Positions 60,918 to 64,000 of a stretch of DNA of 64,000 bases are shown one piece after another. Made by a program: the position numbers and the translations under genes. The stretch comes from Psychromonas sp. MME1 (lineage in GTDB: Bacteria; Pseudomonadota; Gammaproteobacteria; Enterobacterales; Psychromonadaceae): positions 558,001-622,000 of the forward strand of contig NZ_CP160906.1 of NCBI RefSeq assembly GCF_041080865.1. Direction: 5' to 3'. The notes under the pieces were generated by a model, which did not search any database, was not told where the DNA came from, and worked only from the letters and a program-made list of their open reading frames with translations. Each line of letters begins with the position of its first letter. The stretch's first letter is position 1.

Positions 60918-62006
60918 ATGGCAGGAAGCAGTATTGGCCAACTTTTTAAAGTGACCACTTTCGGCGAAAGTCACGGGGCCGCATTAGGATGTATCGTAGA
61001 TGGTATACCACCTAACTTAGCTATTTGTGAAGCTGATTTACAGCACGATTTAGATAGACGTCGTCCTGGGCAGTCGCGTTATACTACAATGCGTCAAGAG
61101 GGCGATCAGGTTAAAATTTTATCTGGTGTGTTTGAAGGAAAAACAACGGGCTGTAGTATTGGTTTATTAATTGAGAATACCGATCAGCGCTCTAAAGATT
61201 ATTCAGCAATTAAAGACTTATTTCGTCCTGGACATGCCGATTACACCTATCATCAAAAATATGGACACCGTGATTATCGTGGTGGTGGGCGTTCATCGGC
61301 ACGTGAAACTGCAATGCGCGTAGCTGCAGGGGCTATTGCTAAGAAATATTTATTTGAGCAATTTGGCATTGTCATTCGCGGCTATTTAAGTCAACTTGGT
61401 GATATTACACCGGATCAATTGAATTGGGATGAAGTTGAAAATAATCCTTTTTTCTTTCCCGATGCAAGCAAAATATCCGCGCTTGAAGACTATATGAAAG
61501 CGCTGATTAAAGAAGGGAACTCTGTCGGAGCAAAGGTCTCCGTGGTTGCATCTGGCGTACCTGTCGGGTTAGGTGAGCCTGTATTTGACCGTTTAGATGC
61601 AGAATTGGCTCACTCATTGATGAGTATCAATGCCGTAAAAGGGGTTGAGATAGGAGATGGTTTTGCCGTTGCCAGTCAAAAAGGAACTGAACATCGTGAT
61701 GAAATGACGCCAGAGGGTTTTTTATCGAATCATGCTGGTGGGATTTTAGGCGGTATTTCAACGGGGCAGGATATTATTGCTCACATTGCGTTAAAGCCAA
61801 CATCGAGTTTAACGATTCCCGGACGTACCATTACCACTGATGGCGAAGCCACTGAGATGATAACTAAAGGTCGTCATGATCCCTGCGTTGGTATTCGGGC
61901 GGTACCGATTGCTGAAGCGCAAATGGCAATTACCTTATTAGACCATTTGTTACGCCATCGTGCACAAAATTTACATGTGCATACCAATACGCCTTTCCTT
62001 AAATAA
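60918..62006 (+). CDS. aroC: chorismate synthase
   Basis: FMN-dependent lyase that makes chorismate from EPSP in the shikimate pathway, 362 residues. The family signatures [66 protein letters not shown] and [17 protein letters not shown] are complete. It lies 36 bases after prmB, probably in one transcript, and is closed by a terminator. It marks the left edge of the restriction-modification segment. Confidence 0.98.
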
Positions 62007-62046: not shown

Positions 62047-62063
62047 GCGCCAATTGAGCACAC

Positions 62064-62171
62064 CTAAACATTTGATTGATGTAAATCAACAAAAAGGTTT
62101 GGGTGTCCGATTTCTTGAATAGCTTCGATTAATTGAATGGAAGAAACAGTTTCATGTTTTTCAATCGGAGG
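62064..62171 (-). pseudogene. possible gene remnant between aroC and the restriction enzyme
   Basis: On the minus strand 35 codons stay open and end in TAG at 62064-62066. The peptide looks protein-like (SSIQLIEAIQEIGHPNLF then VDLHQSNV), but an in-frame stop lies directly upstream at 62172-62174 and there is no start codon, so only a C-terminus remains. It may be the tail of a gene cut off when the restriction-modification pair arrived. No family is recognised. It could also be chance, and a regulatory palindrome lies in the same bases. Confidence 0.3.
62076..62089. promoter_or_regulatory. FNR-type palindrome
   Basis: TTGATGTAAATCAA is an exact match to the TTGATN4ATCAA consensus of FNR/Anr. 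It lies 129 bases before the endonuclease start. It may be a real site for anaerobic control or an accident within the remnant coding frame. Confidence 0.3.
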
Positions 62172-62217: not shown

Positions 62218-63060
62218 ATGCCTCCGATAGTCGAATTCTCCGAAAAAGGAAAACCACAAATAAAGCGAGTGGATACATTTTGCTCTCTTCTTAATTATGA
62301 GCTTCCTTCAGAAGATTCAAGTTTTTCGGGTTTATTAGAACAATTCGATAAAATAATCAAAGATAAACATCCTCAAGTAACGTCCGGAGCATTAAGTAAT
62401 TGTCATGGTGATTGGTATGAATGGATGTTAGCAGCAAATGCTTGGAATTATAGGATCAAAAACAATAAAAACTTAATTCTCCTTCTTTTACCAAATGTAT
62501 CAAGTTTTGACGTGGCGGCACTATATAACGATGAGCTGTATGGTTATATTAATGATCTACTATTAAAGGTAAAGAAAACTGCTGATGTACAATTAATAAC
62601 TTCCAACCCTGATTTTGTTATTATTGATACAACAAATATTAAACTTGATGGTGAATTCCAAAAAAGTATTTCAGGTTTTACCCCTGACTCAATAGATAAG
62701 TTAGAAAAAAGCTATCAGCATTTTATTGGTAAGTGTTCATTTGAAAATATATCAGGCTATCTTTCAGTCAAAACAACATTTCGACCTGATCGTAGGCTGC
62801 AATTGTCGCATGAAGGTTCTCTTATGAAGGCAACATATGTGCACCTTCAAACTAGAGATTGGGTTATTAATCCTAAGGGTTTAAAATACTACGGCGCTGC
62901 AACAAAAATATCTGACGCAGATCGGCGTGGATTACGAACAGTGGCGACACACTCTATTCTCGATGTTCAAGCCACCCCACAAGCTGCGGTTGATGAGGTG
63001 TTTACCATTAATAGCAATTCAAATTGCGATGACGCTTTTAAAATCATTCTCAATGAGTAA
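62218..63060 (+). CDS. type II restriction endonuclease, Cfr10I/Bse634I family
   Basis: A 280-residue endonuclease of the CCGG group. Active-site residues can be placed by comparison with Cfr10I: Glu68 (GDWYEWM), Asp132 in SNPDF, Lys185 in SVKTTFRPDRRLQ and Glu199 in SHEGSLMKA. The RPDRR segment (189-193) holds the R-(D/E)R motif that reads CCGG in this family. HLQTRDWVINPKGLKYYGAA is also family-typical. The expected target is RCCGGY (family knowledge, not shown by sequence). Its 3' end overlaps the convergent methyltransferase gene by 11 bases. AAGGGA precedes the ATG. Confidence 0.88.
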   Translation: MPPIVEFSEKGKPQIKRVDTFCSLLNYELPSEDSSFSGLLEQFDKIIKDKHPQVTSGALSNCHGDWYEWMLAANAWNYRIKNNKNLILLLLPNVSSFDVAALYNDELYGYINDLLLKVKKTADVQLITSNPDFVIIDTTNIKLDGEFQKSISGFTPDSIDKLEKSYQHFIGKCSFENISGYLSVKTTFRPDRRLQLSHEGSLMKATYVHLQTRDWVINPKGLKYYGAATKISDADRRGLRTVATHSILDVQATPQAAVDEVFTINSNSNCDDAFKIILNE

Positions 63061-64000
63061 AAGAATCAAGATATTTCTTAACTGTACGAGCAAGTCCTAA
63101 GCTTGCTACGTACGGAACTCCATTCCCTATAGTTTTAAACATATTCGATAAAGTCATCGTATCAGGAAAAGAAAAGTCTTTTGGCAGTGACTGAATAGCT
63201 AAAGCTTCAGCTGCTGATAATCGTCTACTTTTATAAGGGTGTAAATGAACTTCATTGTTTCCATAAGCAGCCGTCGGTGAGTATCTCCATCTATGTAATC
63301 TTTTAAACGATTTTTTAGAATCATCTCCTTCGTCAATTACTTGAAACTTAGGTAATGCAGCTCTAGGCACAAAATGATGCTTAGAGTTAGGGTGGGCATT
63401 AACATTATTCTTATTGAACCAATATTCAACTGTTAATTCTTCATATTTTTTAATTTCAGTTGGAATTGTTTTTTCACCATTTTCTTTGTATATATCACGA
63501 GTAGGCCATTCTATTTTTTGAAATATTAGATTTCTATCGTACTTCAATTCAGATTGCCAATTAAAATCCATTTCTAATTGTTCATTATTTTTAGAGTTAG
63601 ATTTGGACTTTTTTATTCCAAAAAGTAATATTCTATCTCTATCTTGAGGCGCGCCATACTCAATACAATTTGTCAATCGATTTGTTAGTATATAACCAGC
63701 TTCTTCTAACTCTAATTTTACTTTTTCAAAAAACTCTCTATGTCTCGCAGTGCGCCATAAGCCTTTAACGTTTTCAAATATAAAAAAGTCCGGGCTGAAC
63801 TTAATTATTCCATTAACGTAAACTTGTGTTAATCGACCATTTTCACCATCTTTACCTTTATTCTTTCCTGCAACAGAGAAATCAGGGCATGGAGGCCCAC
63901 CAATAAAACCTATTAACTCATTTTGTTTTTTTGCATTATTAACTGTTTCTAAAAAGGATTCTTTTAAATCTCCTTCTACTAATTCTTCAATACTCTCATT
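63050..64000 (-). CDS. DNA (cytosine-5-)-methyltransferase, cognate of the restriction enzyme (partial at right edge)
   Basis: C-terminal 316 residues of a C5-methyltransferase, open to the window edge. Seen in order: motif IV GGPPCPDFSVAG with the catalytic PC, motif VI FENVKGLW, motif VIII APQDRDRILLFG, a target-recognition region (about 160 residues), then motif IX (RRLSAAEALAIQSLP) and motif X (IGNGVPYVASLGLA). The SAM-binding motif I and the start lie beyond 64000. It should protect the same CCGG-type target as the endonuclease. The tail-to-tail layout means the two genes are expressed from separate promoters. Confidence 0.9.
   Translation of the reverse strand, partial: NESIEELVEGDLKESFLETVNNAKKQNELIGFIGGPPCPDFSVAGKNKGKDGENGRLTQVYVNGIIKFSPDFFIFENVKGLWRTARHREFFEKVKLELEEAGYILTNRLTNCIEYGAPQDRDRILLFGIKKSKSNSKNNEQLEMDFNWQSELKYDRNLIFQKIEWPTRDIYKENGEKTIPTEIKKYEELTVEYWFNKNNVNAHPNSKHHFVPRAALPKFQVIDEGDDSKKSFKRLHRWRYSPTAAYGNNEVHLHPYKSRRLSAAEALAIQSLPKDFSFPDTMTLSNMFKTIGNGVPYVASLGLARTVKKYLDSFTH

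Follow-up and report, generated by a model that had tools for sequence, protein, structure and literature searches.

The window, a 64-kb stretch of DNA (G000:C1:558001-622000) from a source genome of 3.59 Mb in a single contig, ends within a restriction-modification locus. The locus was analysed using a genomic stretch that runs past the window end (L002; a window position equals the L002 position plus 58000). A gene for a Cfr10I/Bse634I-family restriction endonuclease lies behind aroC, where a sequence-only reading had placed it, and is followed by a convergent gene for a C5-cytosine methyltransferase and by a small helix-turn-helix (HTH) gene divergent from the methylase (Table 1). These three genes stand between the first and second copies of a palindromic repeat, and a ParDE toxin-antitoxin pair stands between the second and third. 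The sequence-only reading had described a pair. Endonuclease and methylase are both present, but the set as described was incomplete: a third gene, a candidate operator and the repeats on either side are found at the window edge or past it.

Table 1. Features of the locus in window positions (window-equivalent beyond position 64000) and predicted methylase promoters of four loci.
Feature	Position	Strand	Basis or remark
aroC (chorismate synthase), host gene directly upstream of the insertion	60918..62006	+	ORF and Pfam
Palindromic repeat, 50-64 bp, copy 1	62058..62121 (L002 4058-4121)	+	direct copy
Cfr10I/Bse634I-family restriction endonuclease, 280 aa	62218..63060	+	ATG start; ORF, Pfam and alignment to solved enzymes
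Overlap of the convergent 3' ends, endonuclease/methylase, 11 bp	63050..63060	.	ORF coordinates; methylase stop at 63050
C5-cytosine methyltransferase, 374 aa	63050..64000, continuing to 64174 (G000:C1:622174)	-	ORF, Pfam, alignment
Helix-turn-helix ORF, 67 aa	64248-64451 (L002 6248-6451)	+	ORF beyond the window; divergent from the methylase, 73 bp apart
Palindromic repeat, copy 2	64532-64595 (L002 6532-6595)		same orientation as copies 1 and 3
ParDE type II toxin-antitoxin pair	64804-65402 (L002 6804-7402)		ParE_toxin 70 bits, ParD_antitoxin 111 bits; second cassette
Palindromic repeat, copy 3	65450-65513 (L002 7450-7513)		same orientation as copies 1 and 2
Predicted methylase promoter, own locus			TTGACG-17-AATAAT, 35 nt before ATG
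Predicted methylase promoter, L060			TTGACT-16-TAAAAT
Predicted methylase promoter, L048			TTGACT-17-TAATAT; tied with a second site
Predicted methylase promoter, L052			TTGACT-17-TATTAT

The 280-residue protein was recovered in an intact reading frame with all four motifs named in the sequence-only reading (GDWYEW, SNPDF, SVKTTFRPDRRLQ and SHEGSL). It matched Pfam Bse634I (PF07832) over residues 5-280 (227.1 bits, cut-off 27), and among solved structures it matched Cfr10I (1cfr, E 8e-66) and Bse634I (1knv, E 1.6e-49), with SgrAI next (E 0.006); the Pfam score and the Cfr10I match uphold the family assignment made earlier. Identity was 48% with Cfr10I (110/227 aligned residues) and 38% with Bse634I (100/265). 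Residues R213 and W215 align to Bse634I R226 and W228, which we take to have a role in the tetramer. Residues E68, D132, K185 and E199 align to Bse634I E80, D146, K198 and E212, E68 presumably having a role in the active site. Together they form the permuted PD...K...E site with an extra acidic residue, a motif defined for the Cfr10I/Bse634I group (PMC6344858, excerpt), and R189-P190-D191-R192 align to Bse634I R202-R205, giving the R-(D/E)R motif of CCGG recognition. The family, the catalytic residues and the RPDR recognition block are therefore common to this enzyme, Cfr10I and Bse634I (R^CCGGY, Type IIF). As the catalytic and CCGG-recognition residues that were checked are conserved, R^CCGGY is the likely site, and the enzyme is most likely a tetramer holding two sites (Type IIF).

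The convergent methylase is intact in the genome, with its 5' part, 174 bases, cut off by the window edge. Motifs IV (PPCP), VI (FENV), VIII (QDRDR), IX and X were found as the sequence-only reading had it, and motif I (FSFFSGSGFLDLG) lies outside the window. The protein scored 161 bits against Pfam DNA_methylase and was the sole PF00145 match in its own genome. The 11-base overlap of the 3' ends was also as described earlier, and it recurs in an IMG/VR contig stretch (L060, 5121-5131). The methylase would place 5-methylcytosine in the endonuclease's own site and so protect the host. As proteins, endonuclease and methylase are unremarkable representatives of a known kind.

RCCGGY usage was analysed in 444 kb of the genome (19 stretches of 20 kb and the window). 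There were 128 sites against 137.3 expected (O/E 0.93), and O/E was 0.96 and 1.03 in two relatives (200 kb each). RCCGGY was not selectively avoided in this sample; consequently, there is no sign of long residence or of strong restriction pressure. The CCGG core was depleted regardless of its flanks (O/E 0.66 in the 444 kb vs. 0.96 and 1.11 in two congeners). Given the core, YCCGGR was as scarce as RCCGGY (0.86, 0.93), and the depletion is therefore not ascribable to the restriction-modification system. This depletion, in which RCCGGY is not singled out, would also suit an enzyme that reads another CCGG-core site, such as CCGG itself or a different flank, and as Bse634I reads the outer base pair mainly indirectly (PMC6344858, excerpt), sequence cannot settle the point. 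We nevertheless consider another site unlikely. The closest characterised relative (48% identity) is an RCCGGY enzyme, and Bse634I P203 and N73, located at the outer base pair (PMC4652773, excerpt), are both kept here (N61 at the N73 position), while Cfr10I has K at the latter.

The system had been judged probably acquired. PF07832 was found in one of the 24 genus genomes searched, the source genome itself, and in none of its 23 congeners (a few of them below 90% complete); in overlapping sets, it was found in 1/60 genomes (the source genome), 1/398 of the phylum and 2/394 of the order (the second being G534). As the family was not found in the 23 congeners, acquisition is probable. The comparison of aroC-downstream regions that had been proposed points the same way. 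The aroC gene was present in 22/24 genus genomes, and aroC, prmB and smrB occurred together in the loci of 21 relatives. Downstream of aroC in these 21 (6.7-8.8 kb for 20, 1.5 kb for L025), there was no endonuclease, methylase, HTH, ParE, ParD or DUF3545 match at E 1e-3. In three of them (L025, L045 and L047) asmA followed aroC within 108-244 bp, with nothing between; it was further off in six, and it was not seen in the examined stretch of the other 12. This survey indicates a variable place behind aroC and, in some relatives, an uninterrupted aroC-asmA junction. GC was 0.41-0.44 around aroC, 0.32-0.39 in the island and 0.36-0.40 on the asmA side, and says little on acquisition because the asmA side is similar to the island.

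A LysR-type regulator and a SLAC1-like membrane protein were seen behind aroC in L028, L032, L035, L036, L039 and L043, and also in L029, a stretch without asmA (by Pfam in L032, by eye in the rest), which again makes the place variable across the genus. The AsmA-family gene of the source genome (L002 8038-9959) is split into ORFs of 105 and 513 aa by a frameshift or sequencing error, while it is a single ORF of 624-697 aa in the seven relatives with the whole gene.

The 67-aa HTH protein was below every Pfam cut-off (HTH_3, 13.2 bits vs. 23), and a solved-structure search with it gave no convincing match. Among phage regulator families, it matched phrog_4 (E 0.009), and its homolog in L060 matched phrog_8 (E 3e-6) and phrog_4 (E 1e-5). 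Near-full-length homologs were rare. Two were found among 72,556 plasmid records, both from Moraxella osloensis (L048 and L052), the other plasmid matches having E 6 or worse (best 20 of 54). The third was in the IMG/VR contig L060; the IMG/VR scan used short exact peptide patterns, which miss distant homologs. Among 398 genomes of the phylum there were, apart from the own copy, two matches, both partial (E 5e-4 and 9e-4); phage records, searched with a limit of E 10, yielded 14 (best 0.1 among the matches listed). A 74-aa ORF beside a Nostoc methylase was rejected as a relative, not being homologous.

All four near-full-length HTH genes (own, L048, L052 and L060), on one chromosome, two plasmids and one IMG/VR contig, lie divergently upstream of a C5-methylase. 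The partner is a Cfr10I-type endonuclease in three loci: the own chromosome, the L048 plasmid (where endonuclease and methylase overlap by 15 bp) and the L060 contig. The L052 plasmid has a different methylase, 26% identical to the own one, and a convergent ORF of 306 aa. This ORF had no match at E up to 1 to any of nine Cfr10I-family queries, nor did it match a Pfam family; by position it is presumed to be an endonuclease.

Next, we compared nine Cfr10I-family loci (own, L026, L027, L048, L049, L050, L051, L055 and L060). Endonuclease and methylase genes are convergent in seven and in tandem in L027 and L055. The HTH gene is present in the own locus, L048 and L060; the other six gave no homolog (tblastn with a limit of E 10, no match better than E 0.7), and the HTH gene is therefore not an obligatory part. 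Partner methylases were 52-65% identical to the own one in six of the eight other loci (exceptions L049, 39%, and L051, 26%), and these six also resemble one another in the stretch from motif VIII to motif IX, in support of a shared specificity. Similar methylases also occur in L053 (49%) and L061 (52%), where the Cfr10I-family queries had no match at E up to 1. Phage records had no endonuclease relatives at E 1e-5.

Other regulators were observed in two of these stretches. In L061 (3746-3952), a 68-aa HTH_3 protein (43 bits) is encoded in tandem ahead of the methylase, like a classical C protein, so different small regulators meet the own methylase's group. In the IMG/VR contig L051 (5823-7313), the Cfr10I-type endonuclease is partnered with a different C5-methylase that carries an N-terminal DUF6471 domain (63 bits), possibly a fused regulator.

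The four divergent intergenic regions share a palindrome (ACGCACTGAGTGCG in the own locus, L060 and L048; ACGCACCTAGTGCG in L052). In the own locus this putative operator, TTACGCACTGAGTGCGCAA, occurs once; it stands in the spacer that separates the -35 and -10 hexamers of the predicted methylase promoter and is upstream of the HTH gene (-34 to -16 relative to its start codon). Taken from the own intergenic region, the best 15-mer recurs in the other three with two mismatches in total, while the minimum in 1000 shuffles was 9 (mean 14.3). In all four loci the methylase promoter whose spacer the palindrome occupies is the one with the top score, shared in L048 with a second candidate. Promoter-like sites were about as many as in shuffles (17 vs. 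15.6), and it is therefore the four-way conservation that carries the promoter claim.

By itself the palindrome is not diagnostic, because copies of its 14-mer occur in relatives without the system: one exact copy each in 2/23, and a copy at up to one mismatch in 10/23. The own genome has one exact copy and one single-mismatch copy elsewhere. The 14-mer search gave 17 places; among the matches listed there, those to the HTH, methylase and endonuclease queries were confined to the own locus. The 14-mer was absent from the 64-kb window at up to two mismatches, and hence from the region directly ahead of the endonuclease gene. When the L048 operator stretch was compared by blastn with 7.3 billion plasmid bases, it matched itself, then L052 (E 0.1) and then Nostoc, outside the palindrome (E 6). 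In one phage contig (L117), an operator-like palindrome was located some 500 bp ahead of a methylase match; the contig was rejected, as it had no HTH homolog (high-GC by eye). A looser palindrome pattern gave 17 viral stretches, with a methylase match in one and an HTH match in none; a stricter palindrome-plus-spacing pattern gave no viral stretches.

The HTH gene might be an unrelated passenger beside a plain Cfr10I/Bse634I-type pair, either left over from a phage repressor or belonging to the ParDE region. The six family loci lacking it and its score under the Pfam cut-off would fit such an origin, but four of four HTH genes divergently upstream of a C5-methylase across replicon types, with the same palindrome in the predicted promoter, are hard to explain in this way, and we regard a passenger as quite improbable. 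The sequence-only reading had also called the system active, a statement that would be consistent with the intact genes. A silent relic, with genes intact but unexpressed or recently inactivated, could account for the lack of RCCGGY avoidance; it is very doubtful, as the endonuclease and methylase genes are intact, and so are the predicted promoter and the putative operator.

The endonuclease and methylase genes of Kpn2I (T^CCGGA) converge with an 11-bp overlap, as they do here. C.Kpn2I, with 96 aa, is longer than the own HTH protein, and the likeness is drawn from layout and logic. Some activators use an operator in the promoter spacer, and the spacers of MerR-type activators are of 19-20 bp. 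It is highly improbable that the HTH protein activates the methylase promoter instead of repressing it, since the predicted promoters have good hexamers and 16-17 bp spacers, so that no activator seems needed, and C.Kpn2I, with the same gene layout, represses its methylase (PMC6237814, excerpt).

Kpn2I belongs to the CCGG family (PMC6344858, excerpt) and, like the own locus, transcribes R, M and C separately; the gene for its small regulator is next to M and diverges from it across a short intergenic region (PMC6237814, excerpt). In the published excerpt, C.Kpn2I, encoded divergently, represses M and leaves R alone; the site that it protects runs from -14 to +34 relative to its own gene, overlaps the M -35 and shows no obvious inverted repeats, and C.Kpn2I is a roadblock to transcription of that gene (PMC6237814). 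The putative site differs here, being a clean palindrome upstream of the HTH gene. The Klebsiella mini-plasmids examined were rejected as a Kpn2I source, as they carry a different set (tandem M and ORF). In classical C proteins (e.g. the EcoRV type), a small HTH protein holds the methylase down, as is proposed here. The classical C gene comes ahead of the endonuclease gene in a shared operon, and its product binds C-boxes upstream of the latter (PMC6237814, excerpt), whereas the HTH gene here neighbours the methylase and the endonuclease gene showed no site. XRE-type regulators have been reported beside Kpn2I-related systems (PMC6237814, excerpt), and varied small regulators are therefore already known as a general idea. 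In the literature on Kpn2I, Bse634I, Cfr10I, controllers and operator letters, we found no description of this HTH family or operator; coverage of the restriction literature was partial, which makes this weak evidence of novelty. The regulatory variant is apparently new, within a restriction-modification system of known kind.

We read the locus, with a probability of about two in three, as a horizontally acquired three-gene Type II restriction-modification cassette composed of an R^CCGGY Type IIF endonuclease, a C5-methylase for the same site and an HTH repressor that limits the methylase from a spacer operator. The gene set, the conserved residues, the conserved candidate operator and the patchy distribution are what was observed at these loci; from them we infer enzyme activities, specificity, DNA binding and repression. 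Restriction systems entering a new cell need methylase before endonuclease, and then not in excess; the usual controllers are located in the endonuclease operon. On entry into a new host, the methylase would be made freely. The HTH protein would then accumulate, most likely bind the single spacer palindrome and block RNA polymerase at the methylase promoter. With the methylase limited, incoming phage DNA would not be protected by excess methylation. The HTH protein probably represses its own gene as well, because the palindrome is just upstream of it, and more likely at initiation. The endonuclease gene is probably outside HTH control, as in Kpn2I, since there is no such operator near it. If this reading is true, an HTH family of about 60-70 residues acts on the methylase and on itself from one promoter-spacer operator.

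More tentatively, and at somewhat less than even odds, the HTH gene and its palindrome may be a free-standing methylase governor that can be transplanted into the promoter spacers of C5-methylases of different restriction systems. The governed system would here be one of two cassettes (the other being ParDE) bracketed by three direct copies of the hairpin repeat, which suggests cassette-like insertion without an integrase of its own. The probability of this proposal is lowered slightly because the convergent ORF in L052 matched no Pfam family and is only presumed to be an endonuclease. If it holds, the HTH family has moved between different methylases and is a compact, testable part for studying the establishment and spread of restriction systems.

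The repeat has perfect 23-bp arms in copies 2 and 3, and copy 1 is at 70% identity. Its ends are like GGACACCCAAAC/GTTTGGGTGTCC and its centre is TTGATNNNNATCAA, which we take to resemble an FNR box. We read this arrangement as a probable cassette-like insertion. Other origins were considered and rejected. Integron attC sites have the core GTTRRRY, which was not seen by eye, and the perfect 23-bp arms of copies 2 and 3 also spoke against attC. The one Y1_Tnp gene of the genome had no such palindrome in the surrounding 5 kb, and a RAYT transposon link was dropped. An ancestral aroC terminator was rejected, because the stretches searched in 20 relatives showed no match to the repeat downstream of aroC. 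The repeat is not widespread in the genome either: with up to three mismatches allowed, a 21-mer had three occurrences in the 3.59 Mb, all at this locus (reversed control, 1). Looser forms occur at G000:C1:700362 and 1338879, beside genes that by eye are ordinary; with three tight copies and looser forms at two other places, the repeat is a low-copy family.
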